Shown here in pieces: positions 4,199-19,994 of a stretch of 64,000 nt of DNA; the first letter of the stretch is position 1; the number at the start of each line of letters is the position of its first letter. Made by a program: the position numbers and the translations under genes. The stretch spans positions 310,001 to 374,000 of the forward strand of contig NZ_BNAU01000003.1 in assembly GCF_014653945.1 (NCBI RefSeq), in the 5' to 3' direction. The notes beneath the pieces are model-generated. The model worked only from the letters and a program-made list of their open reading frames with translations, was not told the DNA's origin and did not search any database. Source of the stretch: Amycolatopsis deserti. Its GTDB lineage: Bacteria; Actinomycetota; Actinomycetes; Mycobacteriales; Pseudonocardiaceae.

Positions 4199-5329
4199 CT
4201 AACCGCTGGTCGCCAGCCACGCCTGCTGCAGCAGCGTCATCGACGGCGCGTGCGGGCTCGGCGAGAGCCAGTTGTCCCGCAGCGCCTCGGCGTCCACCAG
4301 CTCAGCGTCCACCCCGCGACCGGTCCACTCGCGCGCGAAGGCGCGTGTCCGTTCCGTGAAGACCGCCCCCGTGAAGTCCGCCTTCGTCGTGCGTTCCAGG
4401 ACTTCGCGGGGCAGCAGGTCGCCGAAGACGTCGCGCATCGTGGCCGTCCGGCCGCTCCACCCCCAGAACCCGGCGGCCCGCGCGATCGCCGCCACGAAGT
4501 CCGGCTCGGCGAACGTCTGCACGTACCGGCAGTCCAGTTCGGACCCCAGCGCGCGCACCGTCCGGTAGCCCAGCCGCGCGCAGCGTCGCGTCGTGAACTG
4601 CCACGCGTGGCGGCCGGCGTGCAGCTCGTACGCCGCCGCGTCCGCCGCGTCCCGTTCGGCGAGCACCTCCTCCGCCGCGGGCCGCAGCCACGGGCGCCGG
4701 TACCGGGCGCGCAGCACGGCCCGCCGCCGCACGGACGCGGGCGCCAGCGCGCGCACCGCGTCGGTGAACACCCGGGCCGGCACCCGCCCGCGTGCCTTGA
4801 GCACCTTGGTCAGCGGCGTGATCCGCTTCAGCCCGAACACCTCGTCGCCGCCCTCGCCGGTCAGCAGCACGCCACCGCGAGCCGCGTCCATCATCCGCCA
4901 GGTCGGCGCGAAGTTCGGCGGCCACACCAGCCCGTGCCGCCGCAGCACCGCGGTCGCGATCGGGCCGACCGGATCATGCTCGTCGTCCACGGTCAGCACG
5001 ATGCGTTCGGTGATCCCGAGGTGCGCGAGCACGGCGTCCTGCCACGCGGATTCGTCCGACCCGGGCGCCGCCGGGTAGCGCAGCGTGATCGGCACCGGCA
5101 GGGGCAGTCCTTCGCGCCGGGCCAGTGACACCGCCGCGGCCAGCAGCGCGGAGGAGTCGCGGCCGCCGGAAAAGGCGACCAGGCAGGGTGTCCGCGTCAG
5201 GTGCCCGAGCAGGATCCGGTCGAGCACCCGCCGCGGCTCGCCGGGATCGCCCAGCGGCAACGGGACGAGGTCGTACCCGTTGATCCAGCCGCCCGCGATC
5301 TCCAGTCGGTCCATTGTGTACAGGGCCAC
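4199..5329 (-). CDS. Lasso macrolactam synthetase C1, synthetase domain only
   Basis: 376 residues with an asparagine-synthetase-type ATP pyrophosphatase domain. The PP-loop SGGRDS is at residues 54-59 and the second ATP/Mg motif GEGGDE at 158-163. Lasso C proteins use this fold to adenylate the side chain of a ring Asp/Glu and close the macrolactam on the core N-terminus. The usual C protein is about 500-600 residues with an N-terminal Ntn glutaminase-like domain; here fewer than 50 residues precede the PP-loop, so that domain is absent. The start is GTG 5329 or ATG 5314; neither has a strong ribosome-binding site. It lies directly downstream of both precursor genes behind a strong hairpin (5369-5408). 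A second, diverged copy is at 8993-10111. Confidence 0.8.
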   Translation of the reverse strand: MALYTMDRLEIAGGWINGYDLVPLPLGDPGEPRRVLDRILLGHLTRTPCLVAFSGGRDSSALLAAAVSLARREGLPLPVPITLRYPAAPGSDESAWQDAVLAHLGITERIVLTVDDEHDPVGPIATAVLRRHGLVWPPNFAPTWRMMDAARGGVLLTGEGGDEVFGLKRITPLTKVLKARGRVPARVFTDAVRALAPASVRRRAVLRARYRRPWLRPAAEEVLAERDAADAAAYELHAGRHAWQFTTRRCARLGYRTVRALGSELDCRYVQTFAEPDFVAAIARAAGFWGWSGRTATMRDVFGDLLPREVLERTTKADFTGAVFTERTRAFAREWTGRGVDAELVDAEALRDNWLSPSPHAPSMTLLQQAWLATSG

Positions 5330-5416: not shown

Positions 5417-5557
5417 TCATGAGTACGTGTCGTTGTCGCCGAGAATCGGCAATGCCCACGTGAGGTTGTCCGGCGCCTGACCGAACAGGTTCGCCTGTGT
5501 CAAGTCCGTCACCGAACCCAATAGGGTGATTTCCGGGGTCGCATACGGTTCGCGCAT
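5417..5557 (-). CDS. Lasso peptide precursor A2 (Ala1 core)
   Basis: 46 residues, too short for ordinary gene calling. ATG 5557 is preceded by a strong GGAGGTGA ribosome-binding site. The leader (1-21) carries the conserved lasso signature: Tyr5, Pro8, Ile10, Gly14 and the penultimate Thr20. The predicted core begins at Ala22 with ANLFGQAPD, placing Asp at core position 9 for a nine-residue macrolactam ring. The tail includes NLTWALPILG and ends DNDTYS, giving a 25-residue core with C-terminal Ser. Ala as ring residue 1 is less usual than Gly. Leader residues align position for position with the neighbouring precursor at 5602-5739 although the cores differ. Its stop is followed by a strong stem-loop and then cyclase C1. 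Confidence 0.85.
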   Translation of the reverse strand: MREPYATPEITLLGSVTDLTQANLFGQAPDNLTWALPILGDNDTYS

Positions 5558-5601: not shown

Positions 5602-5739
5602 TCAGGAAAACGTCAGATCTCCGAAGAGGCTACCGGCAGCGAAATCGGCGTCGAGCCGGGATCCCGACGACTGACCGAGCGTGAGCTCGGACAACGTGCC
5701 GATGTCCTCGATGCCCGGCGCGGCGTACTCTTTCTTCAT
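5602..5739 (-). CDS. Lasso peptide precursor A1 (Gly1 core)
   Basis: 45 residues. ATG 5739 has a clear AAAGGAG ribosome-binding site 5 bases upstream. A much longer open frame through this start was rejected because it runs antisense through the exporter gene. The leader (1-21) has Tyr5, Pro8, Ile10, Gly14 and Thr20, the YxxP...G...T signature read by the RRE protein and the leader peptidase. The core starts at Gly22 with GQSSGSRLD, so Asp falls at core position 9 (Asp at 11 is an alternative). The tail runs through ADFAAGSLFG and ends DLTFS, giving 24 residues with a C-terminal Ser. It is the first gene of the operon A1-A2-C1, read away from the exporter. Confidence 0.88.
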   Translation of the reverse strand: MKKEYAAPGIEDIGTLSELTLGQSSGSRLDADFAAGSLFGDLTFS

Positions 5740-5907: not shown

Positions 5908-7674
5908 GTGGGGATCAGAAGCGTCGCGGCCACGCCGCGGTTGATCACGGCCGCGGCGCGCGAGGTCGCGGCGGCCGACCGGTTCGGCACCGCAACCGCG
6001 GCGGTCTACCAGATCGTCGGCGCTGTCGGCGCGCTCGGCGTCGTCGCGGCGAGCAAGCTCACCTTCGACGCGTTGCTGCAACCGGATCACGCCCGCTTCG
6101 GCCTCACCGTTTCGTTGCTGGCACTGGCGTTCACGACCGCACTGTCCGGTTCGGTCACCGCCCTGCAGACCCAGCAGCACCGGTTGCTCGGCGAACGCGT
6201 GTCGCAACGGGTCTGGGACCGCGTGCTGGACACCACCGCGCGCGCGGACCTGGTGACCTACGAGTCCGCCGGCTTCGCCACGTCGCTGGAACGCGTCCAG
6301 CAGAACGCGCTGACCCGCCCGTTCGCCGTGACCACCGCGCTGCTCGGGCTGACCGGGAGCCTGCTCGGGGTCGTCACGATGTCGGCGGTGCTGATCGGGG
6401 TCGAGCCGCTGCTGGTGCCGATCCTGCTCGCCGCCGGGCTGCCCGCGGTGCTGCTCGCGCGGTGGGCCAGCCGCACCGAGTTCGCGTTCGCCCACCGGCT
6501 CACGCCGCTGTTCCGCCGCCGCAACTACCTGCGGCAACTGCTCACCCAGCGCCCGTACGCGGCCGAGCTGCGCGCGTTCCACTCGACGAAGCCGTTGCGG
6601 GCGCGGCACGGCGAGCTGAACGCCGGGATCAACGGAGCGCTGCGGCAGCAGGTCCGGCGCCGCCAGGTGATCGCCGGGCTCACCACGGTCGGCGTCGCCC
6701 TGTCGCTGACCGCCGCGCTGCTGGCGATCATCGGGCTGGTGCGCAGCGGCCGGATCGACCTGCCCGCGGCGGGCGCCGCCGCGATCGCGGTGCGGTTGCT
6801 GAGCAGCCAGCTCGGCACCTTGTTCACCTCGATCGGCGGGCTGCTCGAATCGGCGCCGTTCCTGGCCGACCTGGAACGGTTCGTCGCGTCGGCCCCGCGT
6901 TCGGCGGCCGCCGGGGCGAAGCGGCCGTTGCGGCAGGGCGTCGTGTTGCGGGACATCAGCTTCCGCTACCCCGAGCAGGAGCGGCCCGCGGTCGACTCGG
7001 TGGACATCGAGATCGGCGCGGGCGAGGTGGTCGCGCTGGTCGGCGAGAACGGCTCCGGCAAGACGACGCTGGCCAAGATCGTCGCCGGGCTCTACGACCC
7101 GGACCTTGGCACGCGCCGCTGGGACGGCACGGACGCCCCGGCGGCCGACATCCGCGCGTCGGTGACGGTGATCTTCCAGGACTTCGTGCGCTACCAGATG
7201 ACGTTGCGCGACAACATCACGATCAGCGACGGCGACCGCCCCGCCGACGAGGAGTCGGTGCACGACGCGGCCCGGCGCGCGGGCGTGCTCGGCGTGACGC
7301 GCGAGCTGCCGCACGGCCTGGACACGATGCTCGGCCGGGACCTGGACGAGGGTTTCGACCTCTCCGGCGGGCAGTGGCAGCGGGTGGCGCTGGCGCGGGC
7401 GCTCTACCGGGACACGTCGCTGGTGGTGCTGGACGAACCGGCCGCGGCGCTCGACCCGCGCGCCGAGCACGAACTGTTCACCGACGTCCGGGCGATGCTC
7501 GGCGGGCGCGCCGCGCTGCTGATCTCGCACCGCTTCTCCAGCACCCGGATGGCCGACCGGATCTACGTGCTCGACGCGGGCCGCGTGGTGGAGTGCGGCA
7601 CGCACGACGAGCTGATGGCCCGCGCCGGCCAGTACGCCGAGCTGTACCGCCTCCAGTCAGCGGCCTACCGCTGA
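5908..7674 (+). CDS. Lasso peptide ABC exporter (fused membrane and ATPase domains)
   Basis: 588 residues. The N-terminal half (about 1-330) is a transmembrane exporter domain with several hydrophobic segments. The C-terminal half is an ABC ATPase: Walker A GENGSGKT near residue 379, Q-loop region VIFQDFVRYQMT, signature LSGGQWQR near 485, Walker B LVVLDEPAAALD and H-loop LISHRFSS. It matches the D component of lasso loci, which exports mature peptide and confers self-immunity. The start is GTG 5908 with GTAGGA 7 bases upstream. It is divergent from the precursor operon and its last 18 bases overlap the convergent kinase gene, which supports one compact locus. Confidence 0.88.
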   Translation: MGIRSVAATPRLITAAAREVAAADRFGTATAAVYQIVGAVGALGVVAASKLTFDALLQPDHARFGLTVSLLALAFTTALSGSVTALQTQQHRLLGERVSQRVWDRVLDTTARADLVTYESAGFATSLERVQQNALTRPFAVTTALLGLTGSLLGVVTMSAVLIGVEPLLVPILLAAGLPAVLLARWASRTEFAFAHRLTPLFRRRNYLRQLLTQRPYAAELRAFHSTKPLRARHGELNAGINGALRQQVRRRQVIAGLTTVGVALSLTAALLAIIGLVRSGRIDLPAAGAAAIAVRLLSSQLGTLFTSIGGLLESAPFLADLERFVASAPRSAAAGAKRPLRQGVVLRDISFRYPEQERPAVDSVDIEIGAGEVVALVGENGSGKTTLAKIVAGLYDPDLGTRRWDGTDAPAADIRASVTVIFQDFVRYQMTLRDNITISDGDRPADEESVHDAARRAGVLGVTRELPHGLDTMLGRDLDEGFDLSGGQWQRVALARALYRDTSLVVLDEPAAALDPRAEHELFTDVRAMLGGRAALLISHRFSSTRMADRIYVLDAGRVVECGTHDELMARAGQYAELYRLQSAAYR

Positions 7675-8574
7675 GAGCAGGTCCGCGAGCACCTCGTCGC
7701 GGAAGGGCGGGCCCCAGGGCACGGTCGCCTCGAACACCGGCACCTGCGCCACCAGGTCCGCCAGCCGCTGGAACGCGAAGTCCATCACCGCCGGATCCCG
7801 CCACCCCAGCACGCGCGGGAACTGGCTCATCCGCACGAACGCCCGCGCCCCGGTGATCCGCTCCACCGAAACGTCCGTCGCGGACCGGCTCGGCCGCGGG
7901 ATCACGCACGCGGCCAGCGGCAACGCGCTGGCGGACACAGTGGACCGCAAAGCCAGCCGGCCGTCGGCGGTCGGCCGCACGTCCTCCGCGGCGGCCCCGT
8001 CCGCCAGTCCGCGCGCGGCCATCCGCAGCCGGTTCTCCGTGCTGCCCGGGTACACGAGCGCGCCGGGATCGACGCGCAGCACGTCGTCGGCCACCAGGTC
8101 GCACCCGTACCCGCACAGCGCCGCCGCCAATGTGGACTTCCCCATCCCCGACGCGCCGACGAACGCCAGCGCGCGGTCGTCCACCCGCACCGCGCTCGCG
8201 TGCAACACCAGGTGCGAGTTCAGGGTCAGGTGGATGGCGAGCAGCGCGCCCGTCGCGAGCACGGTCAGCAACCCGTGATCGGCCGACGGGTCGAGGTGGT
8301 AGGTCACCTCACGCAGCCGCACGTCGCCGACGAACTCGCACAGCGACGGGTACCGCAGCACGGTCCGGTCCCCGTCCGTGGCGAGTGTGTAGAACACCCG
8401 CCCGTCCGGTTTCGCCAGTTCGGCCAGGCACCGGCCGGGCAGCTCGGCCCGCGGCACCGTCCGATCGGAACCGCGGCGCAGCACCAGATCCGGCTCGCCG
8501 CCGTCACCGGGTGGCAGCGCCAGTTCGACATCGCTCCAGACGGTCAGCCCGTGAGCCTGGTAGGTGAAGTCCAT
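7657..8574 (-). CDS. HPr-kinase-like protein K of the lasso locus
   Basis: 305 residues resembling the C-terminal catalytic domain of HPr(Ser) kinase/phosphorylase. The HASAV motif is at 125-129, the P-loop GASGMGKST at 140-148 and LVADD at 160-164. Homologues in paeninodin-type lasso loci phosphorylate the side chain of the precursor's C-terminal Ser. Both precursors here end in Ser, so the substrate is present. ATG 8574 is preceded by GGGGTGA; an upstream in-frame GTG at 8583 would give a 4-base GTGA overlap with gene B. It is the last gene of the E-C2-B-K operon and its end overlaps the convergent exporter by 18 bases. A general carbon-control HPr kinase is unlikely given this context. Confidence 0.83.
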   Translation of the reverse strand: MDFTYQAHGLTVWSDVELALPPGDGGEPDLVLRRGSDRTVPRAELPGRCLAELAKPDGRVFYTLATDGDRTVLRYPSLCEFVGDVRLREVTYHLDPSADHGLLTVLATGALLAIHLTLNSHLVLHASAVRVDDRALAFVGASGMGKSTLAAALCGYGCDLVADDVLRVDPGALVYPGSTENRLRMAARGLADGAAAEDVRPTADGRLALRSTVSASALPLAACVIPRPSRSATDVSVERITGARAFVRMSQFPRVLGWRDPAVMDFAFQRLADLVAQVPVFEATVPWGPPFRDEVLADLLSAVGR

Positions 8575-8579
8575 TGTGG

Positions 8580-8996
8580 TCACCCCGCCGATCCGAGTAC
8601 CGCGTACCGCGCCGCCATGGGGTCCATCGCCCTGCCGTCGATCTCCAGCCACGAGTGCGCGGCGAACCGGCCGTCCTCGCGCCGCACGCCGATGCGCAGC
8701 ACCGGTTCCAGCTCCCGCAACCGGTGCCCGATCAGCAGGCACTGCCGCAGGCACGTGTCCCCGGCCGGCCACCGCGACACCACGAAGTACGAGGCCCGGA
8801 TCGGCGCCCGCGACCACCGCGGCAGCACCGGCGCCTCGGCCGAGGGCGGCTCGGTGCTGGTGAGATCGCAGCGCACCCCCAGCCGGCGGCACGTTTCCCG
8901 CAGGTCCGAGCGCCGCAGGCGGAACTCGATCCGCACCATCGGCGGAAGCGCCCGCAGCACCTCCCAGGCCAGCCGGGCCCGTCGCCGCCACCTCAT
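8580..8996 (-). CDS. Lasso leader peptidase B (transglutaminase-like)
   Basis: 138 residues, the usual length of a stand-alone B2 protein with the Transglut_core3 fold. The likely catalytic Cys is residue 82 in TCLRQCLL, with His114 in AAHSWLEIDG and Asp120 completing a Cys-His-Asp triad. Such enzymes cut the precursor after the leader, just past the penultimate Thr, exposing the core N-terminus for ring closure. The start is ATG 8996, overlapping the C2 stop (ATGA). A second Cys at 86, where many homologues have Ser, is a minor oddity. The leader-binding RRE is encoded separately at 10092-10343, so this is the split E plus B2 arrangement. Confidence 0.87.
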   Translation of the reverse strand: MRWRRRARLAWEVLRALPPMVRIEFRLRRSDLRETCRRLGVRCDLTSTEPPSAEAPVLPRWSRAPIRASYFVVSRWPAGDTCLRQCLLIGHRLRELEPVLRIGVRREDGRFAAHSWLEIDGRAMDPMAARYAVLGSAG

Positions 8997-10111
8997 GCCG
9001 CCTCCGCCAGCCAGGCCTGCTGCAACAGCATCGCGGTGGACGCCGGCGGCTCGTCGGCCAGCCACGCGGTCCGCAACGCGTCCGGATCGACCAGCGACGC
9101 GTCGACACCGCTGCCGTCCCAGTTCCGCGCGAACTCCCGCGACCGCGCCCCGAAGCGGGAGGCGTTGAACCGCGCCTTGTCCCGCCGGGTGAGGACCGCC
9201 TCCGGCAGCAGCCCGTCCGCGACCAGCCGGGTGCCCGCCGCGCGGGTCATCGGTGCGACAGCCGCGTAGGACGCCACGAACGTCGGATCGGCGAACGGTT
9301 CCACCAGCTCGCAGCCGTACTCCGCGGCCGCGTCGGCCCGCGTCCGGAATCCCACCGAGAACGCGCGGGTCGCCAACGCGGTGCGCACGCTGGTCTCCCA
9401 CCGCAACGGGCGGTCCGCGGCCGCGCGCCACAGCGTGCGGCGCACGTCCGGCCGCAGCCACGGCATCGGCAGCGACCGGCGCGCGAGCCGTCGGCGGGCG
9501 AACGCGGGCGCCGCGCACAGCGCGAACTGCGCCCAGTCGGCCCCGGTCATCCCCCGGCCACGACGGCGCGCCACCGCCCGCAGCGTCCCGAGCCGGTGCC
9601 CGCCGAGCACCTCGTCCCCCGCGTTGCCGGTGACCAGGCTGCCGCCCGGCGCGTGCGACGCGAGCAGCATCGTGTTGCCCAGCGCCGCCGGGTAGACCGG
9701 GCCGCGCGCCCGCAGCACCGGCCGCACGAGCGGTCCGATCAGGTCCAGCTCGCCGTCGATGTCCCGGCGCGCCCAGGTGTCGACGCCGACGTGCCGGATC
9801 ACCGCCTCCTGCCAGGCCGACTCGTCCGCGGCCGCGTCACCGGGATAGCGGAAGGTCAGCGCGATCGGTGGTGCGAGCCCCTCCCGTGCGGCGAGATCGG
9901 CCGCGACCGCCAGCAACACCGACGAGTCCCGCCCACCGGAAAAGGCGATCACACACGGCTCACGCAGCAACGCCGGTCGCACGGCGTTCCGCAGCGCCAG
10001 CACCGGGTCCGTGGGCACGCCGAGCGGGAACGGCGCGACACCGAGCGGCTGACCGGCCGCGATGTCCAGTGTGGACAGCCGCGGCGGCGCCTCAGTGGAG
10101 GAGCTCGGCAT
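8993..10111 (-). CDS. Lasso macrolactam synthetase C2, synthetase domain only
   Basis: 372 residues, a diverged paralogue of the protein at 4199-5329. The PP-loop SGGRDS is at 58-63; the second motif is GNAGDE (162-167), where C1 and most asparagine synthetases have GEG. The N-terminal glutaminase-like domain is missing here too. Both paralogues end in a similar MLLQQAWLA tail. The start is ATG 10111, which overlaps the end of the E gene by 20 bases; it lacks a strong ribosome-binding site, so coupling to E is likely. The longer open frame reaching 11173 runs antisense through the PAP2 gene and was rejected. C2 may cyclise one of the two precursors or pair with C1. Confidence 0.8.
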   Translation of the reverse strand: MPSSSTEAPPRLSTLDIAAGQPLGVAPFPLGVPTDPVLALRNAVRPALLREPCVIAFSGGRDSSVLLAVAADLAAREGLAPPIALTFRYPGDAAADESAWQEAVIRHVGVDTWARRDIDGELDLIGPLVRPVLRARGPVYPAALGNTMLLASHAPGGSLVTGNAGDEVLGGHRLGTLRAVARRRGRGMTGADWAQFALCAAPAFARRRLARRSLPMPWLRPDVRRTLWRAAADRPLRWETSVRTALATRAFSVGFRTRADAAAEYGCELVEPFADPTFVASYAAVAPMTRAAGTRLVADGLLPEAVLTRRDKARFNASRFGARSREFARNWDGSGVDASLVDPDALRTAWLADEPPASTAMLLQQAWLAEAA

Positions 10112-10343
10112 CGCGGAGCCGGCCGAGGAAGGCCTCGATGTCGCGGCGCGCGGTGTCCGCGTCGATCTCGTACTCGCTGGTGATCGCGCCGACCAGGTCC
10201 TCGACCGACCGCTCCTCGGCGAGCAGCTCGAACAACCGCGTGCCGACACCGGTGATGGTGAAGTACTTCGAGGTCGACAGGCTGAGCACGATCGTCTCGT
10301 CACCGATGGTGCGAGCCGAGATGTCGGATGCCCGTACGCGCAT
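10092..10343 (-). CDS. Lasso RRE protein E (PqqD-like leader binder)
   Basis: 83 residues with the PqqD/RiPP recognition element pattern: ETIVLSLSTSKYFTITGVGTRLFELLAEERSV is the strand-turn-strand-helix core, described here by its two halves (residues about 16-30 and 31-48), followed by a helical winged part ending RLRDAELLH. These domains bind the leader and present it to the B protease and the cyclase. ATG 10343 has a good GGGAGG ribosome-binding site 7 bases upstream. It is the first gene of the minus-strand operon E-C2-B-K, so its promoter should lie in 10344-10441. Confidence 0.87.
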   Translation of the reverse strand: MRVRASDISARTIGDETIVLSLSTSKYFTITGVGTRLFELLAEERSVEDLVGAITSEYEIDADTARRDIEAFLGRLRDAELLH

Positions 10344-10441: not shown

Positions 10442-11110
10442 GTGACCCGCACCTTGCTGCCCGCACGAGCCGCAATGCCCGCCACCGTGCGGCGTCCCCT
10501 GCTGGTGCTGGCGATCCCCGCCGCGATCACCGTCGTCGTGCTGGCCGTCCACTTCGCCGGCACGCACGCCGCGGGCGCGCTCGACCGCTGGATCCTCGAC
10601 GCCTCGGGCGGCGCGATCCCGTTCCCGTCGCAGCAACGGGTCACGGCCAAGGGCCTGGACTTCGCGGGCGAACCGGCGGGCGCCGCGCTGCTGGTGACCG
10701 CGCTGATCGCGCTCTGCCTGGTGCTCGGGCACCGGCGCGCGGCCGTGCTCGCGGTGCTCGGCCCCGGTCTGTCGGTGGCCGTGACGACGCTGCTGAAACC
10801 CGTCGTGGGGCGCACCATCAACGGCCCGCACCTGTCCTACCCCAGCGGGCACACGGCGGTGGTGACCGCGATGGTCCTGGTGTTCGCGTTCGTCCTGGTG
10901 GACCGGCTGCGGCTGCGCACGCCCGCCGCGACGGCCGTCGTGCTCTACGCCGCCGTCACCACCGGTGCCGCGGAAGCGTGGGCGCAGTACGGCATGGTCG
11001 TGCACTACCCGACGGACACGCTGGGCGGCTTCTGCGTCGCGCTCGCCGTCGTGCCCACCACGGCCTGGCTCGTCGACCGCGTCACGCGTAGGGCCGGAAC
11101 ACCGGCTTGA
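10442..11110 (+). CDS. PAP2-family membrane phosphatase
   Basis: About 222 residues from GTG 10442 (ATG 10475 is equally possible; neither has a clear ribosome-binding site). Several membrane segments alternate with the PAP2 motifs: KPVVGRTINGP, YPSGHTA and VVHYPTD. The His of PSGH and the His/Asp of the third motif are present, but the Arg residues of the canonical KX6RP and SRX5H motifs appear as Ile and Gln. Family members dephosphorylate lipid phosphates such as undecaprenyl diphosphate. It starts back to back with lasso gene E and its 3' end overlaps the aminotransferase gene by 29 bases. It may recycle lipid carrier for the adjacent glycan operon. Confidence 0.75.
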   Translation: MTRTLLPARAAMPATVRRPLLVLAIPAAITVVVLAVHFAGTHAAGALDRWILDASGGAIPFPSQQRVTAKGLDFAGEPAGAALLVTALIALCLVLGHRRAAVLAVLGPGLSVAVTTLLKPVVGRTINGPHLSYPSGHTAVVTAMVLVFAFVLVDRLRLRTPAATAVVLYAAVTTGAAEAWAQYGMVVHYPTDTLGGFCVALAVVPTTAWLVDRVTRRAGTPA

Positions 11111-12395
11111 CCGGGCGGCCACCGATCCACGGCGTCGGGTCCTCGGCGTCCAGCGCCTTGCGGTACACGGCACACGCCTGGGCCACCACGTCCACCGTCC
11201 GGTCGATGTCGGCCTCCGTCAGTGCGCTGCTCACCACGAACGACGGCCCGAGCACGCCACCGGCCACCAGCTGGCGCAGGAACAGCGTCCGGTACGGCTG
11301 GGACGGCCGCAGCTGCTCGTCGAGCGTGCCGAACACCAGGTTGCTCGCCCGGCCCCGCACCACGACGTGCTCGCCGACGCCCATCGCCGCCGCCACGTCC
11401 CGCACCCCGGACGCCAGGCGCTCGCCCAGCGCGTGCAGCCGGGCCGTGACGCCCTCCTCGACGTAGGTGTCCATGACGGCCATCGCCGCGGCCAGTGAGT
11501 GCGTCTCCGCGCCGTGCGTGGTGGACAGCAGGAACACCCGCTCCCGCGCGTGCCGCAGCCCGCCGAGCTCCATCAGCTCCCGCTTGCCGGCCAGCGCGGA
11601 CACCGCGAACCCGTTGCCGAGCGCCTTGCCGAACGTGGACAAGTCCGGCGTCACGCCGTAGTAGCCCTGCGCGCCCGCCTCCGACCAGCGGAACCCGGTG
11701 ATCATTTCGTCGAAGATCAGCACCACGCCGTAGGAGTCGGCCAGCGCGCGCAGCCCCTCGAGGTACCCTGGCGGGGGCTCGACCGCGGTGGCGGCCTCCA
11801 GGATCAGGCACGCGACGTCGTGCTGCCGCAGGACCTCCTCGGTCGCGGCCAGGTCGCCGTACGGGAAGCGCACGGTCAGCGCGGCGATCTCGTCCGGGAT
11901 CCCGGCGGGCATGCCGGTGGTGCCGATGAACCAGTCGTCGGTGGAGAAGAACGGGTGGTCGGCGCAGATCGCGACCACCCGCCGCCCGGTCGCCGCACGC
12001 GCGAGCCGGACCGCGGCGGTGGTGACGTCCGAGCCGTTCTTGGCGAACTTGACCATCTGCGCGGTCGGCACGGTCGCCAGGAACTTCTCCGCGGCGGCCA
12101 GCTCCACGGTGGACGGCCGCACGAAGTTGCTGCCCCGGTCCAGCTCGCGCCGCACGGCCTCGACCACCCGCGGGTGCGCGTGCCCGAGGCTCACCGACCG
12201 CAGCCCGGAGCCGTACTCGATGTATTCGTTGCCGTCCACGTCCCACACGTGCGCGCCGCGGCCGTGCGAGATGACCGGCGCCAGCCCCTCCGGGTACTGG
12301 TCCTCCCCCTTGGCGTAGGTGTGCGCGCCACCGGGCACGAGCTGGTGCAGACGCTCGTTGGCCTCGGTGGACCGGGGCAGGAACTGCGCGTCCAT
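11082..12395 (-). CDS. Class III aminotransferase, glutamate-1-semialdehyde aminomutase-like
   Basis: 437 residues, fold-type I PLP enzyme. The PLP-binding Lys is about residue 257 in DLSTFGKALGNGF and the cofactor Asp about 229 in LIFDEMITGFRW. ATG 12395 has a GAGGTGA ribosome-binding site; a longer upstream frame reads through the epimerase gene and was rejected. As last gene of a nucleotide-sugar operon it more likely aminates a keto-sugar or builds an amino substituent than serves heme synthesis (true HemL lies in hem operons). It follows the RmlC-like gene by 5 bases. Substrate not determinable from sequence. Confidence 0.85.
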   Translation of the reverse strand: MDAQFLPRSTEANERLHQLVPGGAHTYAKGEDQYPEGLAPVISHGRGAHVWDVDGNEYIEYGSGLRSVSLGHAHPRVVEAVRRELDRGSNFVRPSTVELAAAEKFLATVPTAQMVKFAKNGSDVTTAAVRLARAATGRRVVAICADHPFFSTDDWFIGTTGMPAGIPDEIAALTVRFPYGDLAATEEVLRQHDVACLILEAATAVEPPPGYLEGLRALADSYGVVLIFDEMITGFRWSEAGAQGYYGVTPDLSTFGKALGNGFAVSALAGKRELMELGGLRHARERVFLLSTTHGAETHSLAAAMAVMDTYVEEGVTARLHALGERLASGVRDVAAAMGVGEHVVVRGRASNLVFGTLDEQLRPSQPYRTLFLRQLVAGGVLGPSFVVSSALTEADIDRTVDVVAQACAVYRKALDAEDPTPWIGGRPVKPVFRPYA

Positions 12396-12400
12396 GACTG

Positions 12401-12949
12401 TCACCTCAGGGTCTTCAGAACTTCGGCGAGCGAGGGCGCGCGCCGGTCGCGGTCGGAGGTCAGGCTCACCGGCAGCGGCCACGGGATGGCCAGGTCCGGG
12501 TCGTCGAACGCGATGGTCACGTCTTCGGACGGGTCGTGCGGCCGGTCGATGCGGTAGGAGACGTCGGCGGGGTCGGTCAGCGCCTGGAAACCGTGCGCGC
12601 AGCCCGCCGGCACGTACACGCTGACCTGGGTGTCGCCGGAGAGCTGGAAGTACTCGGTGTTGCGGAAGGTCGGCGAGTCCGGCCGCAGGTCCACGACGAC
12701 GTCGAACACCTCGCCGTAGGAGCAGCGGACCAGCTTGGCCTCCCCGGCGCCGGAGCGCAGGTGCATCCCGCGGATCACGCCCTTGACCGAGCGGGACAGG
12801 CTGTCCTGCGCGAAGCCGTCCGGGTCGATGCCGACGGAGGCGACGACCTCGCGGTCGAACGTGCGCGAGAAGAACCCGCGCGCGTCGGCGTGCGGTGTCG
12901 GTTCGAACAACCACGCCCCGGCGATGCCGGGTACCGGTACGGCCTTCAC
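12401..12949 (-). CDS. rfbC: dTDP-4-dehydrorhamnose 3,5-epimerase family (RmlC-like)
   Basis: 182 residues, the normal RmlC size, cupin fold. Visible family motifs are DARGFFSRTF, GVIRGMHLRS with the catalytic His, KLVRCSYGEVFDVVVD, and VYVPAGCAHGFQALT. The enzyme epimerises C3 and/or C5 of 4-keto-6-deoxy sugar nucleotides. The start is GTG 12949 with AGGGAG upstream, overlapping the preceding stop (GTGA). With RfbF rather than RmlA in the operon, its nucleotide may be CDP rather than dTDP; that is inference. Confidence 0.88.
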   Translation of the reverse strand: MKAVPVPGIAGAWLFEPTPHADARGFFSRTFDREVVASVGIDPDGFAQDSLSRSVKGVIRGMHLRSGAGEAKLVRCSYGEVFDVVVDLRPDSPTFRNTEYFQLSGDTQVSVYVPAGCAHGFQALTDPADVSYRIDRPHDPSEDVTIAFDDPDLAIPWPLPVSLTSDRDRRAPSLAEVLKTLR

Positions 12950-14124
12950 GTCCGGCTCCCTTCGATGACGGACTCGGACATGATGTCGAACTGGCGCTCG
13001 AGCCGCTCGGTCATCACACGATTGCGTTCCTTGAGCACCGCGGTCAGCTCCTCGCGCCGGTCCTCCAGCTCGCGGAACTGCCGCACCAGCCGGTCGAAGT
13101 CGGGTTCCCGGGCGGACTGGCAGAACTCGCCGAGCCCCATCGCCTCCATGAGCACGTCGTTCTTGCGCGCGTAGCCCAGGGAAATCGTCGGTTTCGCGGT
13201 CTTCAGCGCGCAGAGCACGTTGTGGTAGCGCGTGGCGACGACGACGTCGACGGCGGCCATCTGGTGCATGAGGTCCTGCAGCGAGGTCAGTGGCTCGGCG
13301 ACGATATCCGCGCCCGGCACCGCGGCGATGATCTCCGCGGGCACCTCGGCGTCGGCGACATCGCCGGTGAACAACCGGATCGGGCGGCCCTCGTCGGCCA
13401 GCAGGCGCACGAACCGTTTCACGGTGGCCAGGTAGGCGCGGTTGATCTCGTCCGCGCGGGCGCGGTCGTCGTTGCCGCCGTGGAAGGCCATCACGCCGAC
13501 CCCGACCGCGCCGGCCGAGGTCCGCGGTTCGGGACCGTCGAGGCCGAACGCCAGGTCCGGGAAGACGCCGTCCCCGCTCACGTCGACCCCCATGCGGGCC
13601 ATCGCCTGACGCGAGTGCTCGTCCCGGTAGGACCGGTAGTGCGCCAGCCGCGCGGCGCGCGTGATGACCCACCGGGTGGCGCGTTTGCGCACCACGTCGG
13701 CGCCGACGCTGACGAGCGCGACCCTGGTCCCGGTGAGGCGGGCGGTCACGCCGAGCCAGAACAGCGAGTACGGCAGCGCCCACGGCCGCAGCGGCAGCGT
13801 CGCCTCCAGCACCCCCATCCCGGGCACGATGACCACGTCGAAGTTCCGCACCCAGGCCCAGGTCCGGAACGGGTCGAGCAGCTTGCCGAGCACCTTCAAC
13901 CCGGCCGCCCGCAATCCGGTCGCGTCACCCGCGTGCGGCTCGTACCACTGCAGGTGCGTGGCGGGCGCGCCGTACCGCGCGGTGAGTTCCTCCGGCCCCA
14001 TCGCCAGGAAACCCAGCTCGGAGTCCGGATATCGCTTTCGCACGTATCTCAATACGGCGTCGAGCGATCCGTCGTTGCCCAGGTTGCCCGAGCCGAGGAT
14101 GCCGAAGAACCCGATGCGCGTCAC
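12946..14124 (-). CDS. Polysaccharide pyruvyl transferase family protein
   Basis: 392 residues of the PF04230 family: N-terminal GFFGILGSGNLGNDG, a central VVIVPGMGVLEAT, and C-terminal ATRYHNVLCALKTAKPTISL followed by a helical tail. Members transfer pyruvate from PEP to a sugar or act as related GT-B-like enzymes. The start is GTG 14124, overlapping the stop of the GT2 gene; it ends in a GTGA overlap with the RmlC-like gene. Its place after flippase and glycosyltransferase suggests it decorates the finished glycan. Confidence 0.8.
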   Translation of the reverse strand: MTRIGFFGILGSGNLGNDGSLDAVLRYVRKRYPDSELGFLAMGPEELTARYGAPATHLQWYEPHAGDATGLRAAGLKVLGKLLDPFRTWAWVRNFDVVIVPGMGVLEATLPLRPWALPYSLFWLGVTARLTGTRVALVSVGADVVRKRATRWVITRAARLAHYRSYRDEHSRQAMARMGVDVSGDGVFPDLAFGLDGPEPRTSAGAVGVGVMAFHGGNDDRARADEINRAYLATVKRFVRLLADEGRPIRLFTGDVADAEVPAEIIAAVPGADIVAEPLTSLQDLMHQMAAVDVVVATRYHNVLCALKTAKPTISLGYARKNDVLMEAMGLGEFCQSAREPDFDRLVRQFRELEDRREELTAVLKERNRVMTERLERQFDIMSESVIEGSRT

Positions 14125-14975
14125 GAAAGCAGACCCACCTTCCGCAGTGGCTTGCCGCCGAGCCATTCCGCGATCACGGCGTAGCAGCGGCGCCGTTCGC
14201 TCGACGACAGCGGTGCGCGCCGGATCGCCGTGACGTACCCGGCCAGGTACTCGGCGAACAGCCGCGCCTTCGACTGGCCCTCCCGGCGCGGGTCGAGGTT
14301 CGCGCACACCTTCTGCACCGAGCCCAGGTTGTCGCCGCGGCCTGGGTGCTCGCGGCGGAAGAACATGACCTCCGGGACCTGCACGAACGTCCCGTGCAGC
14401 GCGAGTTCACCGACCAGCTTGCGGCCGGCGTTGTGGTAGCTGTCGTGCGGTGCGATCCGCCGCATCACCGAGGTGCGGATGACGCCGTAGAAGTCGTCCC
14501 CGCCTTCGGTGAACATCAGGCTGCGGAACCGGACCGCGGCGTCCGGCGAATCGGTGGCCAGGCCGTAGTCGTAGTTCTCGATGACCTCGCCCCGCTCGTC
14601 CACGATCGCCATGTACGTGTGCGCGAGCACCGCTTCCGGGTGCTCGTCGAGCGCCTGGACGCAGCGCGCCAGCAGCTCGGGGGCGAACAGGTCGTCGTGC
14701 GCGGCCCACTTGAAGAACTCGCCGCGCGCCGCCCGCACCACGAAGTTGTGGTTGGGCGCGGCCCCGATGTTGCGCGGCTGCCGCACGTACCGGATGCGGT
14801 CGTCCCGCGCGGCGTACTTCTCGCAGATCTCCTGCGTGCCGTCGCCGGAGGCGTTGTCCGAGATGATCAGTTCGAAGTCGGTGAAGGTCTGGGCCAGGAG
14901 GTTGTCGAGCGCCTCGGCCACGTAGTTTTCCCCGTTGTAGACGGGCAGTCCGATGCTCAACCTCGGTGCGGTCAT
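14121..14975 (-). CDS. GT2-family glycosyltransferase
   Basis: 284 residues, GT-A fold. Starts LSIGLPVYNGENY, then LLAQTFTDFELIISDNAS, the nucleotide-sugar metal motif AAHDDLF, and a C-terminal helical part. It transfers a sugar from a nucleotide donor onto a lipid-linked or glycan acceptor. ATG 14975 overlaps the flippase stop (ATGA) and its end overlaps the pyruvyltransferase start (GTGA). Donor and acceptor unknown. Confidence 0.88.
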   Translation of the reverse strand: MTAPRLSIGLPVYNGENYVAEALDNLLAQTFTDFELIISDNASGDGTQEICEKYAARDDRIRYVRQPRNIGAAPNHNFVVRAARGEFFKWAAHDDLFAPELLARCVQALDEHPEAVLAHTYMAIVDERGEVIENYDYGLATDSPDAAVRFRSLMFTEGGDDFYGVIRTSVMRRIAPHDSYHNAGRKLVGELALHGTFVQVPEVMFFRREHPGRGDNLGSVQKVCANLDPRREGQSKARLFAEYLAGYVTAIRRAPLSSSERRRCYAVIAEWLGGKPLRKVGLLS

Positions 14976-16261
14976 GGGGTCCTCGATTCCTCCGGGACAG
15001 GGACGTGTGCGCGGGCGGCGACGTGCAGCTGGCTCCACCACACGAACGCGCCCGCGAAGGTGGCGCACGCGACGCCCCAGCCGGACCCCACGGCCCCGCC
15101 GATCGCCGCGCCGGACAGGCCGCCGATGACGTAGAGGGACGACGCGATGAGCTGGCAGCGCATGCTGCGGCGGGCCGCGCCCAGCGCCCGCAGGCCGGTC
15201 GCGGCGCCACCGATGAAGCTCGCGTTGAAGACGGACAGCGTGGCGGGGATGATCATCGCCTGGGCGGTGCGCCAGACGTCGCCGAGCACGAGCTCGCCGA
15301 GGTGGTCGTTCAGGACGAGCAGCAGCGCGCCGCCCCACAGCAGCGCAGCGAGCGCCTGGCTCCCGCCCAGCACCAGGCAGAAGGTCGTCAGCCGCCGCAC
15401 GTTGCGGCGCACCACGCGGGCCGCCTCGGGCACCGCGACGTAGGCCAGGCCCATCAGGACCGCGAGGAACGGGCCGAGCAGCAGTTCGCCACCCCGCACG
15501 GTCCCGACGGCCGCCAGTCCGGCGATGGCGCCGAGGCCGTACATCCGGATCTGCGAACCACCGCTGTTGCTGACGTTCTCGACGAGGTAGCGCGGCCCGA
15601 GGTCGCGCTGGTCGCGCAGCCAGGACCGCACCCCGTCGAGGCTCGGCCGCAGACCGGTCTGCAGGTAGCCGTAGCCCGCGGCGACCGCGGCCGCGCCACC
15701 CCAGGCCAGCAGGAACGCGACGACGCTGCCGTGCAGCGCGGCCAGCACCATCGCCGGGATCATGGCCACGCCCCACAGGGCGTCGTTGACGAACGACTTC
15801 TGGCCTTCGCCGGAGGCGAAGAACGCGAACCGCCAGCTGTCCTGCAACAGCAGCGGCGGCAGGATCACGCCGAGCGCGACGAACGCCGGTCCGACGCTCC
15901 CGCCCACCACGATTCCGAACAGCACGCTGACCAGGCCCGCCACGGCGCCCACGGCCAGTGCGGTCGCCGACGACCGGGCCACCGCCGCACGCCACACACC
16001 GGTGTCGACGCCGCTGAAGCGCACCATCAGCGGGTCGGTCGCCAGCCCGCGCGAGACGTTGAGCATGACACCGTAGGTGACCCACGCCAGGCTGAAGACG
16101 CCGAACGCGGTGACGCCCAGTTCGCGGGCCACGTAGATGCCGACGGCGAAGTTCGTCAGGCTCGACACCGCCTGGTCGCCCAGCCCCCAGGACAACCGCC
16201 CGGCCATGGCTCGCAGCCCGGACGGCTTCGCAGCGGGCTTGCGGTGGCGGCCCGTGGTCAT
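14972..16261 (-). CDS. Oligosaccharide flippase-like membrane protein (Wzx/MATE type)
   Basis: 429 residues with about 12 hydrophobic segments, beginning RLSWGLGDQAVSSLTNFAVGI, a characteristic start of polysaccharide-biosynthesis flippases. It should move a lipid-linked glycan across the cytoplasmic membrane. ATG 16261 has GGAGGGGTGA about 7 bases upstream. This ribosome-binding site sits in the only sizeable gap of the operon (16262-16306), after the epimerase, so translation restarts independently here. Confidence 0.85.
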   Translation of the reverse strand: MTTGRHRKPAAKPSGLRAMAGRLSWGLGDQAVSSLTNFAVGIYVARELGVTAFGVFSLAWVTYGVMLNVSRGLATDPLMVRFSGVDTGVWRAAVARSSATALAVGAVAGLVSVLFGIVVGGSVGPAFVALGVILPPLLLQDSWRFAFFASGEGQKSFVNDALWGVAMIPAMVLAALHGSVVAFLLAWGGAAAVAAGYGYLQTGLRPSLDGVRSWLRDQRDLGPRYLVENVSNSGGSQIRMYGLGAIAGLAAVGTVRGGELLLGPFLAVLMGLAYVAVPEAARVVRRNVRRLTTFCLVLGGSQALAALLWGGALLLVLNDHLGELVLGDVWRTAQAMIIPATLSVFNASFIGGAATGLRALGAARRSMRCQLIASSLYVIGGLSGAAIGGAVGSGWGVACATFAGAFVWWSQLHVAARAHVPVPEESRTP

Positions 16262-16306
16262 GGGATCACCCCTCCACCAGTGCGTGCATCCCGGGCCCGC
16301 AACGCA

Positions 16307-17329
16307 TCACACGAACCGCAGGGTGTCGTCGACCGCACCGGCCTCGCGGTGCCGCTTGAGCCGCGCGAGCCGGGTGAAGCTCCGCTCGAACGCGGAGTGG
16401 GTCAGCCCGTGCCGCTGGTAGGCCTCGACCAGCTCGACCGCGCCGTCCTTGACCGACCACTCGCAGGTGAAGCCGGGGATCGCGGCGCGGAAGCGGGAGA
16501 AGTCGACCCGGTAGGACCGCGGGTCGGCGCCGGCCTCGCCGGTGATCCGCAGCCGAGAGCCCGGCACGGCCTCGACGACCTGCTCGGCGATCTCGGCGAC
16601 GGTCACGTTGTTGCGCTCGGTTCCGATGTTGAACGCCTTGTCGTGCACCGCTTCGCGCGGCGCGACCAGCGCGGCGGCGAACGCCCGCGCGATGTCCCGC
16701 GCGTGCACCAGCGGCCGCCACGGCGTGCCGTCGGAGAGCACCAGCACCTCACCGGACAGGCACGCGTGCCCGACCAGGTTGTTCAGCACGATGTCCGCCC
16801 GCAGCCGCGGCGAGAACCCGAACGCGGTGGCGTTGCGCAGGTAGACCGGGGTGAAGTCGTCATCGGCCAGCTCGTGCAGGTCGTCCTCGACGAGCACCTT
16901 CGACTCCGCGTACGGCGTCACCGGCCGCAGCGGAGCGTCCTCGTTGACCAGGTCCGCGCCGCCCGAAGCGCCGTACACCGAGCAGGTGGACGCGTAGAGG
17001 AACCGGGACACCCCGGCGTCCTTGGCCAGCCGCGCCAGCCGGACCGCGGCCCTGTGGTTGATCTCGTAGGTCAGCTCGGGCGCCAGCGCGCCCAGCGGGT
17101 CGTTGGACAGCGCCGCCAGGTGGATCACGGCGTCCACACCGGACACGTGCTCGGGTGTGACGTCCCGCAGGTCCACCCGGTGCCCGGGCGGGTCCTGCGG
17201 CTTCGGGCCGAGCACGCACTCGTCGAACAGACCGGAGTCGAGCCCGGTCACCTCGTGCCCGGCGGCGGTGAGCACCGGCGCCATCACCGTGCCCAGATAC
17301 CCCTTGTGCCCGGTCAGCAGCACACGCAT
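16307..17329 (-). CDS. NAD-dependent sugar epimerase/dehydratase (extended SDR)
   Basis: 340 residues. Rossmann motif TGHKGYLG at the N-terminus, then HLAALSNDP, the catalytic STCSVYG and YAESK, and a substrate-side RNATAFGFSPRLRAD. These enzymes epimerise, reduce or dehydrate nucleotide sugars; the exact reaction cannot be read from sequence. A 4,6-dehydratase activity cannot be excluded and would supply the missing step of the operon. It follows the PIG-L gene by 3 bases. Confidence 0.85.
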   Translation of the reverse strand: MRVLLTGHKGYLGTVMAPVLTAAGHEVTGLDSGLFDECVLGPKPQDPPGHRVDLRDVTPEHVSGVDAVIHLAALSNDPLGALAPELTYEINHRAAVRLARLAKDAGVSRFLYASTCSVYGASGGADLVNEDAPLRPVTPYAESKVLVEDDLHELADDDFTPVYLRNATAFGFSPRLRADIVLNNLVGHACLSGEVLVLSDGTPWRPLVHARDIARAFAAALVAPREAVHDKAFNIGTERNNVTVAEIAEQVVEAVPGSRLRITGEAGADPRSYRVDFSRFRAAIPGFTCEWSVKDGAVELVEAYQRHGLTHSAFERSFTRLARLKRHREAGAVDDTLRFV

Positions 17330-17332
17330 GGC

Positions 17333-17974
17333 TCAACCCTCCAGCTGGAGACACAACTTCCGGACCGCGAAGGCCTCCGCGTACCGCGCCTGGCATTCGA
17401 TCCCCCGAATGCGGGCCAGCCCGAGGAAAGCCTCCCGGTCGTACCAAGGACGATGTCGCTGCGAGGGGTAGTGCCGTTGCAGCAATTCGACTTTTTTCTC
17501 GGCGAGTTCGTCACGCAGCGGCACGTACACCGACGGTGTGCCCAGGTCGCCGTCCCACTTGACGATCTCGTAGCCGAGCGTGAGGTGCCCGCGGAACGCG
17601 GTCGGCACCAGCTTGGCGAGGCCGCGGTGGTCCTGGTGCGCGTCGTCGGTGCGCGGTGCGACGATCAGGTCCGGGTCGGTGCGCGCCCGCAGTTCCTCCA
17701 GCGCGTTCTTGACCTCGTCCCAGTGCGCGGGCAGCCGGCCGTCCGGCATCTTCAGCACGGTCACGTCCAGGTCGGCGCCCGGGCAGAACGCCGCGAGCGC
17801 CGCGCGTTCCTCGTCCTCGCGCTCACTGCCGCCGCCGGAGAGCACCAGGGCGTCCACCCGCAGTCCGGGACGGCTCAGCGTGAGCAGGGTGCCGCCCGCG
17901 CCGATCGCGATGTCGTCGCAGTGGGCGCCGAGCACCACGATCCGCTCGAGCCGCTCCGGAATCAGTCCGATCAC
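17333..17974 (-). CDS. PIG-L family deacetylase
   Basis: 213 residues. The zinc site AHCDDIAIGAGG lies near the N-terminus and HQDHRG downstream supplies the second ligand, as in MshB and PIG-L N-acetylglucosamine deacetylases. GTG 17974 overlaps the RfbF stop (GTGA). In this operon it probably removes an N-acetyl group from a sugar intermediate. MshB itself is longer and lies elsewhere in these genomes. Confidence 0.85.
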   Translation of the reverse strand: MIGLIPERLERIVVLGAHCDDIAIGAGGTLLTLSRPGLRVDALVLSGGGSEREDEERAALAAFCPGADLDVTVLKMPDGRLPAHWDEVKNALEELRARTDPDLIVAPRTDDAHQDHRGLAKLVPTAFRGHLTLGYEIVKWDGDLGTPSVYVPLRDELAEKKVELLQRHYPSQRHRPWYDREAFLGLARIRGIECQARYAEAFAVRKLCLQLEG

Positions 17975-18759
17975 GCCGGCACTCGGTCCTTCTCCCACAG
18001 CGCCCACGGGCGCACCCCGCGCGTGTAGGCCTCGTCCAGGGCGTAGCGCTCCTTGACCGTGTCCGTCGGCTTCCAGAAGCCGCGGTAGGGGTAGGCGAGC
18101 AGGCGGCCGCGCTTGGCGAGTTCGGCGCACCCGTCGGCGACCAGGTCGCCGTTCTCCGGGATGTGGTCGAACACCTCCTGGCGCAGCACGAAGTACCCGC
18201 CGTTCTCCCACAACGGCATCTCGCTCACCGCGGTGATGGAGCCGACCAGGCCGCCCTCGTCCATCTCCACGCAGTGGAACGACGACTGCGGCGGCACGAC
18301 CATCATCGACGCGCCCGCGTCCGACCGGGAGAACCGTTCGATCATCGACGGCAGCGGCGCGTCGGTGAGCACGTCGGCGTAGTTGGCGAGGAACATCTCG
18401 TCACCGTCGAGGTGCTTGCGCACGCGGCGCAGCCGTTCCCCGATCGGCGACTCGATCCCGGTCTGCACGAACGAGATCGTCCAGTCCGCGATGTCGGTGG
18501 ACAGCAGCTCCGCCTTGCCGCCGCGCAGCACGAAGTCGTTGGAGGTGGTCTCCTCGTAGTTGAGGAAGAAGTCCTTGATGTGGTGGGCGCCGTAACCGAG
18601 GCACAGGATGAACTCGGTGTGCCCGAAGTGCGCGTAGTAGCGCATCACGTGCCAGATCAGCGGCCGGGGACCGACCATCGCCATGGGCTTGGGCACGTCG
18701 GAAGCGGTGCCGTTGCGCATCCGCATCCCGTACCCGCCGCAGAACAGGACGACCTTCAC
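17971..18759 (-). CDS. rfbF: Glucose-1-phosphate cytidylyltransferase (RfbF-like)
   Basis: 262 residues. Nucleotidyltransferase signature GGYGMRM followed by DVPKPMAMVGPRPLIWHVM, then FLNYEE, VQTGIESPIGERLRRV and LANYADVLTD, characteristic of RfbF. It makes CDP-glucose from CTP and glucose-1-phosphate. GTG 18759 has a GAGGTGA ribosome-binding site and overlaps the methyltransferase stop. The usual partner CDP-glucose 4,6-dehydratase (RfbG) is not recognisable nearby. The signature has GMRM where many homologues have GTRL. Confidence 0.88.
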   Translation of the reverse strand: MKVVLFCGGYGMRMRNGTASDVPKPMAMVGPRPLIWHVMRYYAHFGHTEFILCLGYGAHHIKDFFLNYEETTSNDFVLRGGKAELLSTDIADWTISFVQTGIESPIGERLRRVRKHLDGDEMFLANYADVLTDAPLPSMIERFSRSDAGASMMVVPPQSSFHCVEMDEGGLVGSITAVSEMPLWENGGYFVLRQEVFDHIPENGDLVADGCAELAKRGRLLAYPYRGFWKPTDTVKERYALDEAYTRGVRPWALWEKDRVPA

Positions 18760-19994
18760 GTTGGATTCACCTCGACGATTTCCAGGCGGGGTATGGGGAA
18801 GACCAGCTTGCCGCCCCACTCCCCGACGTAGGACAGCTGCTGGGTCAGTTCGTCCCGCAGGTTCCAGGGCAGGACCAGGACGTAGTCGGGCCGGTCCGCG
18901 GCGATGCGGTCCGGCGGCAGGATCGGGACGCGCGTGCCCGGCGTGAACCGGCCGTGCTTGTACGGGTTGCGGTCGACCGTGTAGGCGAGCAGGTCCGGCC
19001 GGATGCCGCAGTGGTTGAGCAGGGTGTTGCCCTTGCCCGGCGCGCCGTAGCCGACCACGGTGAGGCCGTCGTCGGCCGCGTCCACGAGGAACCGCAGCAG
19101 GTCGCGGCGCACGCGGGCGACCCGGGCGGCGAACTCGGTGTAGCCGGAGAGTTCGTGCAGCCCGGCGGCCTTCTCCCGGGCCAGGACGTCGACCATGCGG
19201 TGGCTCGGTTCACCGGCGGTTTCGGCGGGCTGGGCCCACAGCCGGATGGAGCCGCCGTGGGTCGGCAGCAGCTCGACGTCCACTAGGGACAGTCCGCCGG
19301 AGGCGAGCGCCCGCTGCGCCGAAGCCACCGTGTAGTACTGGAAGTGCTCGTGGTAGATCGTGTCGTACTGGGTCTTCTCGATGAGCGTGAGCAGGTGCTG
19401 CACCTCGATCGACACCCAGCCGTCGTCGGCGACCAGCGCGCGCAGGCCCTTCGTGAAGCCGATGACGTCCGGGATGTGCGCGTAGACGTTGTTCGCCACG
19501 ACCAGATCCGCGGGACCGTGCTCGGCCCGCACCGCCGCGCCGGTCTCCGGGCCGAGGAACGCGGTCAGCGTGGGCACGCCCGCGTCCCGGGCGGCTTGGC
19601 CGACGTTCACCGACGGCTCCACGCCGAGGCAGCGGATGCCCTGTGCCACAACGTGTTTGAGCAGGTACCCGTCGTTGCTGGCGACCTCGACGACGAACGA
19701 GTCGCCGTCCAGGCCCAGCCGGTCCACCGCACCGGCGACGAACCGGCCCGCGTGATCCACCCAGGATTCCGAATACGACGAGAAATACGCGTATTCGGTG
19801 AACGTTTCCTCAGGAGTGATCAACGGCGGGATCTGCGCGAGCCAGCAGTCCGTGCACACCCGCAGGTGCAACGGAAAGGTATTTTCCGACTCGTCCAGTT
19901 GTGCTTCGGTCAGGAACGCCTCGCACGGCGGGGTCGCCCCGAGGTCGACGACGCTGGCCAGCTGTGTCGAGCCACAGAGTCGGCAGGAGGTCAT
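18756..19994 (-). CDS. Sugar C-methyltransferase, first gene of the glycan operon
   Basis: 412 residues with three parts. An N-terminal zinc-binding domain has CRLCG and CTDCW pairs. A SAM-binding Rossmann domain has VVEVASNDGYLL and ANNVYAHIPDV. A C-terminal domain has VGYGAPGKGNTLLNHCG. This is the NDP-4-keto-sugar C3-methyltransferase family (TylCIII/NovU type), producing methyl-branched sugars. Its substrate is normally a 4-keto-2,6-dideoxy or 6-deoxy sugar nucleotide. A promoter is expected in the 76 bases upstream (19995-20070), although read-through from the hydrolase gene is possible. Confidence 0.88.
   Translation of the reverse strand: MTSCRLCGSTQLASVVDLGATPPCEAFLTEAQLDESENTFPLHLRVCTDCWLAQIPPLITPEETFTEYAYFSSYSESWVDHAGRFVAGAVDRLGLDGDSFVVEVASNDGYLLKHVVAQGIRCLGVEPSVNVGQAARDAGVPTLTAFLGPETGAAVRAEHGPADLVVANNVYAHIPDVIGFTKGLRALVADDGWVSIEVQHLLTLIEKTQYDTIYHEHFQYYTVASAQRALASGGLSLVDVELLPTHGGSIRLWAQPAETAGEPSHRMVDVLAREKAAGLHELSGYTEFAARVARVRRDLLRFLVDAADDGLTVVGYGAPGKGNTLLNHCGIRPDLLAYTVDRNPYKHGRFTPGTRVPILPPDRIAADRPDYVLVLPWNLRDELTQQLSYVGEWGGKLVFPIPRLEIVEVNPT

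Follow-up and report, generated by a model that had tools for sequence, protein, structure and literature searches.

The locus described here, from a soil actinomycete, is a gene cluster for two lasso peptides with one kinase, K, common to both, and its two products are very probably phosphorylated at their C-terminal ends. It lies in a stretch of 64,000 nucleotides of the Amycolatopsis deserti genome (contig NZ_BNAU01000003.1, positions 310,001 to 374,000), the whole of which is referred to as the window. The features of the locus are collected in Table 1.

Table 1. Features of the lasso peptide locus and adjoining genes, in window coordinates
Feature	Position	Strand	Description
C2	4199-5329	-	376 aa single-domain Asn-synthetase-like macrolactam synthetase; SGGRDSS PP-loop; matches PF00733
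Precursor A1	5417-5557	-	46 aa, MREPYATPEITLLGSVTDLTQ followed by predicted core ANLFGQAPDNLTWALPILGDNDTYS; predicted ring A1-D9; C-terminal Ser
Precursor A2	5602-5739	-	45 aa, MKKEYAAPGIEDIGTLSELTL followed by predicted core GQSSGSRLDADFAAGSLFGDLTFS; predicted ring G1-D9; C-terminal Ser
D	5908-7674	+	ABC exporter, permease and ATPase; convergent with K
K	7657-8574	-	305 aa protein of predicted HPr-kinase/PEPCK fold; candidate lasso precursor kinase
B2	8580-8996	-	Lasso leader peptidase, transglutaminase-like; NF033537 lasso_biosyn_B2, 52 bits (cut-off 33)
C1	8993-10135 (start approximate, ~10.1 kb)	-	Second single-domain cyclase; matches PF00733
B1	10092-10343	-	PqqD-like RiPP recognition element (RRE); PqqD, 64 bits
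PAP2-family phosphatase	10442-11110	+	Between the aminotransferase and B1
Sugar/polysaccharide operon	11082-19994	-	Adjoins the lasso genes upstream of B1; class-III aminotransferase, RmlC-like epimerase, polysaccharide pyruvyl transferase, GT2, epimerase, nucleotidyl transferase, sugar C-methyltransferase; flippase-like protein (by eye, without Pfam hit); PIG-L-like deacetylase (by eye)

The minus-strand operon has the order B1-C1-B2-K, and the same strand carries A2, then A1 and then C2 on the other side of D. The ATG of K is located 5 nt past the stop codon of B2, and K is co-directional with B2, C1 and B1. B1, B2, C1, C2 and D are all identified with Pfam and NCBIfam, and the locus thus has the leader peptidase, RRE, leader-type precursors and PP-loop macrolactam synthetase by which a lasso cluster is recognised. 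Both precursors have a YxxPxI RRE motif, Thr(-2), a ring Asp9 and Ser as the last residue. With the lasso_leader_L3 model, A2 scores 19.4 bits, just over the cut-off of 19, and A1 scores 17.6 bits, just under it. Shine-Dalgarno-like sequences, found by eye, lie upstream of A2 (AAGGAG) and A1 (GGAGGTG). Single copies of B1, B2, K and D are common to the two precursor/cyclase pairs. The less ordinary features are that each of the two precursors is co-inherited with a cyclase of its own, that the cyclases are short (~376 aa) and that a sugar operon is contiguous with the lasso genes.

By its sequence and its model, K is a protein of the HPr-kinase fold with all the catalytic residues of the known lasso kinases. 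The preliminary description had placed an HPr-kinase-like gene with an intact P-loop inside the lasso operon, and both the P-loop GASGMGKS (G140-S147, in the numbering of the 305-residue protein) and the gene order bear this out; the other catalytic residues are H125 and D163/D164. Family models recognise K weakly: Pfam PF07475 gives 25 bits (cut-off 33) and NCBIfam HprK_rel_A (TIGR04352) gives 38.3 bits, below its cut-off of 200. A profile built from 28 homologues of K, on the other hand, matches the HPrK structures 2qmh, 1jb1 and 1ko7 (E ~1e-5), and the PEPCK/HPrK fold is seen in its AlphaFold model (pLDDT 95). The model superimposes on PEPCK with a VIA Z of 16.9 (257 residues, 4.0 Å), while the match to HPrK is weaker (Foldseek E 2e-4). 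Since PEPCK and HPrK are two branches of one superfamily, the higher rank of PEPCK in Foldseek is no evidence of a PEPCK function. The catalytic His, Lys, Ser and two Asp residues do not vary within the core of the K clade; the one exception is the L222 kinase, a more distant relative, in which Glu replaces the first Asp. The closest named relatives are A. tucumanensis and A. thermalba, whose kinases are 92% identical to K. The same residues (His, P-loop Lys/Ser and Asp-Asp) have been tested by mutation in the lasso kinase BsfK (PMC10368454).

The main evidence for the target of K comes from the precursors that accompany it. K loci came from a set of 390 genomes belonging to the bacterial family, of which 24 have K, and from GTDB contigs (23 loci). 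The controls were lasso loci of that family without a kinase, located through B2 alone and having the best B2 scores. Precursors were called by the leader motif, Thr(-2) and a ring Asp or Glu only, the last residue being left out of the criteria, and a few precursor frames within unrelated genes were taken out manually. All 36 distinct predicted cores beside K end in Ser, as do 2 of the 61 without a kinase (Fisher 1.4e-24); because the p-value ignores shared ancestry and the controls are those with the best B2 scores, it gauges the strength of the association and not its independence. Clustering of the cores at 50% identity leaves this nearly absolute association in place (13/13 beside K against 2/41 in the controls). 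A 37th core of the K clade, from L038, is non-canonical in that its leader is followed by no ring acid at positions 7-9, and it also ends in Ser. Kinase loci whose precursors lack a terminal Ser, proposed earlier as the telling counter-example, were sought within the K clade (at least about 38% identity), and none was found.

The last Ser is retained while its surroundings change. The two window precursors had been described as ending in Ser (DNDTYS, DLTFS) despite otherwise unlike cores, which holds for both A2 and A1. Their last codons are TCC and TCA; in other K loci the codon is TCG, TCC, TCA or AGC, differing by locus, so that Ser is kept across the difference between the TCN and AGC codon classes. 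In the A1 family the ring Asp9, one Gly in the tail and the last Ser are the sole invariant residues after the leader, and the tails differ in length and sequence, yet the final residue is always Ser. Thr(-3) is a further invariant residue of the A2 family, and therefore A2 alone does not fix the site of phosphorylation. The linkage of the K clade with a terminal Ser is well supported by these sequence comparisons. Since every close relative of K adjoins a Ser-ending peptide, K very probably phosphorylates the last Ser of the precursors, a prediction that is likewise well supported.

The rule extends only to the clade. When distant kinases were gathered through a profile search of the phylum, the order and plasmids, many adjoined Ser-ending precursors (L222, L223, L228, L236, L250, L251, L253, L259, L260, Priestia and Sulfitobacter), but others adjoined precursors ending in V (L224), P (L226, L227, L229 and L258), D (L234), G (a second L222 locus) or T (Halopiger). 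Relatives of K below about 35% identity thus break the rule. In a quick tree, whose long branches make placement rough, the window K falls inside a large part in which all precursors end in Ser, and the exceptions fall outside it. L224, which was inspected manually, has a kinase 34% identical to K, lies outside the all-Ser clade and has a cyclase ORF with a long N-terminal part. Because distant kinases can also have precursors ending in V, P, D, G or T, the proposal that any HprK-like kinase implies a terminal Ser was rejected, and it is not well supported that a lasso-cluster kinase should, as a general rule, signify a terminal phosphoserine. The earlier suggestion that Ser is kept for the kinase is supported for the K clade, with its 36 of 36 cores, and does not apply to every distant HprK-like lasso kinase.

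The distant loci also include other arrangements. At L226, L227 and L229, B1, B2, K and an exporter adjoin a Cys-containing, Pro-ending precursor (GNSGPPGCNPSDGCVAPGLGSQ...), and no cyclase was recognised. At L243-L245 and L257, an HprK-like gene is surrounded by small precursors, between one and three in number and nearly identical (REPYAKPELVKHDNLKDITFEC...CSVVVP); lasso B2 or cyclase was not found at these loci, which possibly represent another kinase-linked RiPP. L294, on a plasmid of Halopiger xanaduensis, is an archaeal lasso-like locus with an HprK-like kinase, a nucleotidyltransferase and a flippase, and its candidate precursor ends in Thr.

The K loci of Pseudonocardiaceae carry A1 and C2 only, A2 and C1 only (Haloechinothrix, L035) or, as in the window, both pairs. 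L036, a Pseudonocardia MAG, has both precursors with only C2 within reach, and in L082 A2 is a frameshifted remnant (4600-4900, minus strand), while its partner C1 is still open. With this remnant counted as A2, A2 and C1 occur together in 11 loci, A2 without C1 in one, C1 without A2 in none and neither in 11 (Fisher 9.6e-6). A2 and C1 are co-inherited, and this, together with the adjacency of A1 and C2, suggests that C1 serves A2 and C2 serves A1.

Both cyclases are unusually small. The PP-loop SGGRDSS of C2 is located at residue 54 of 376, while in the control cyclases of the family the motif SGG[LM]DST is at residues 229-393 (at 166 in one) of ORFs that mostly exceed 600 aa. Cyclase ORFs of the K clade mostly have fewer than about 120 residues between the upstream stop and the PP-loop motif, and the longer open frames overlap the upstream gene where this was checked (the window and L025, in which B1 lies ahead of C1). 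The model of C2 (pLDDT 92.5) aligns to asparagine and beta-lactam synthetases only from about residue 158 of those enzymes onward, which indicates that C2 does not have their N-terminal domain. C2 thus differs from a canonical cyclase, in which an N-terminal Ntn/glutaminase-like domain puts the PP-loop at about residue 230 or beyond. A separate copy of this domain was not found among the recognised ORFs of the locus, and searches limited to open-licence papers turned up none that describes single-domain lasso cyclases. K and the short cyclase occur in the same Pseudonocardiaceae genomes (23/24 each), and the only short-cyclase locus found without K is in G320, a fragmented genome that is 72% complete.

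At almost every K locus of Pseudonocardiaceae, orthologues of the sugar operon are next to K, and they are hardly ever present next to control lasso loci; AT3, in particular, adjoins K at 22 of these 23 loci and is found at 1 of 77 controls. The gap between the aminotransferase and B1 is just 80 nt in L026, and in L095 and L098 the two sets of genes are interleaved (B1-AT3-NTP-CMT-C2-A1-K-B2). Two Nocardioides loci retain the epimerase and the C-methyltransferase in a changed order, while several K loci outside Pseudonocardiaceae have no homologues of these sugar genes. The linkage may be inherited synteny, but a shared role of the lasso and sugar genes is favoured because rearrangements keep the link. 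The PAP2-family phosphatase, which most K loci of Pseudonocardiaceae retain next to K, is a possible further part of the system. Glycosyltransferases also adjoin kinase-bearing lasso clusters in rumen Bacillota (PMC7533575).

Other targets or roles have to be weighed against phosphorylation of the last Ser. K might act on an internal Ser or Thr, the terminal Ser being incidental, as BsfK phosphorylates Ser3 of a precursor that ends in Asp (PMC10368454); the window A2 core, with Ser3, Ser4 and Ser6, and the invariant Thr(-3) of its family would agree with this. Position 3, however, is occupied by Leu in A1 and varies over the whole set (L14, S5, G4, A3 and others among 32 cores), and across the K-clade cores there is no conserved internal Ser/Thr column, the last position alone being Ser or Thr throughout, so that an internal site was rejected as the main reading and is quite improbable. 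An equally small likelihood attaches to the idea that what maintains the terminal Ser is a need of the exporter, of the short cyclase or of the activity of the product, with K having another role or being vestigial. K, the short cyclase and the terminal Ser are almost inseparable phylogenetically, and since they share ancestry, comparison alone does not fully separate a Ser kept for the kinase from one kept for another part. Against such a role, loci with short cyclases and divergent kinases have precursors that end in G (L222) or P (L258), the catalytic residues of K do not vary, and the enzyme class and position of K fit those of known kinases of C-terminal Ser.

A further step after phosphorylation of the terminal Ser would be compatible with the main reading. 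The phosphoserine could be an intermediate that is elaborated further, for instance by receiving a sugar or by becoming linked to a glycan, lipid-carried or at the surface, that the adjoining operon makes. This is unlikely but deserves some weight: the lasso and sugar genes are contiguous, co-directional and, at two loci, interleaved, AT3 is concentrated at K loci, and the phosphate of pseudomycoidin bears a hexose (PMC8498205, PMC9266682). This proposal is weakened by the fact that linkage within a single family may be no more than inherited synteny, by several K loci outside Pseudonocardiaceae that have no homologues of the operon, and by the window itself, where neither a ligase nor a dedicated nucleotidyltransferase N was found beside K. 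Speculatively, the terminal phosphoserine may link to a surface glycan. In the fullest form of this proposal, which is somewhat less likely again, it would be a handle through which both peptides are sugar-capped or joined to the surface glycan of the adjoining operon, making the locus one of a glycan-tethered actinomycete lasso family with a single-domain cyclase for each precursor.

For the preferred reading, phosphorylation of the terminal Ser by K, the route can be outlined as follows. B1 would bind the YxxPxI leader of A1 and A2, and K, with ATP and Mg, would add one or more phosphates to the side-chain of the C-terminal Ser of both while they are still linear. B2 would then cut off the leader after Thr(-2)-x, and C1 (for A2) and C2 (for A1) would join residue 1 to Asp9, locking the lasso. 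The product would be exported by the ABC protein D. The phosphorylation, its site and the order of modification are modelled on PadeK, ThcoK and SyanK, while the specificities of C1 and C2 and export by D are suggested by the locus.

With this reading, C-terminal lasso phosphorylation, which reviews describe in Bacillota and Pseudomonadota, would also take in a conserved actinomycete family. The locus provides a natural test set, in which one kinase faces two unlike substrates with little in common apart from their leader, ring Asp and terminal Ser. As small catalysts, the single-domain cyclases would be of use in studies of lasso folding, and the linked sugar operon leads to a concrete hypothesis on the purpose of lasso phosphorylation.

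C-terminal phosphorylation of lasso peptides and the accompanying Ser rule are already known (reviewed in PMC8498205 and PMC9266682), and the present system is of a kind represented by paeninodin, ThcoK, SyanK and pseudomycoidin. The pairing of HprK-related kinase A with PqqD_rel_X (TIGR04352/TIGR04353) likewise combines an HprK-like kinase with a PqqD-like protein, but the window proteins fall well short of the curated cut-offs (38 of 200 and 20 of 35 bits). The comparison with published kinases made use of BsfK and of a paeninodin-family locus from Priestia. BsfK of Bradymonas, the kinase of the lasso precursor BsfA, has the catalytic motif of K and scores 108 bits with the widened K profile. 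Its precursor, modified at Ser3, has Ile(-2) and a terminal Asp, while both window precursors have Thr(-2) and a terminal Ser; the hallmarks of BsfK-type substrates, Ser or Thr at core position 3 and Ile or Val(-2), are absent from A1, with its Leu3, and the second of them from both precursors.

In pseudomycoidin biosynthesis PsmK acts on the terminal Ser, as is predicted by analogy for K. PsmK is accompanied by the nucleotidyltransferase PsmN, a putative member of the Pfam family NTP_transf_5; no such gene is seen beside K in the window, and a K-clade locus of Georgenia (L044) does have an NTP_transf_5 gene. The paeninodin-type clusters of PadeK and ThcoK (Bacillota) and the system of SyanK (Sphingobium) share with the window an HPr-kinase-like K, the H/K/S/DD motif, split B1 and B2 and precursors ending in Ser. 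The alignment of the K profile to the kinase of a Priestia plasmid, from a locus annotated by NCBI as paeninodin-family, runs over the full length (hhalign probability 99, E 3e-18), and the tail of the Priestia precursor, GDLTFES, resembles the GDLTFS of A2. The cyclase of that locus has 646 aa with SGGLDS at residue 267, compared with 376 aa and the motif at residue 54 in C2. The window thus differs from the PadeK, ThcoK and SyanK systems in its actinomycete host, in its two precursors with two co-inherited cyclases, in the single-domain form of these cyclases and in the sugar operon contiguous with them.
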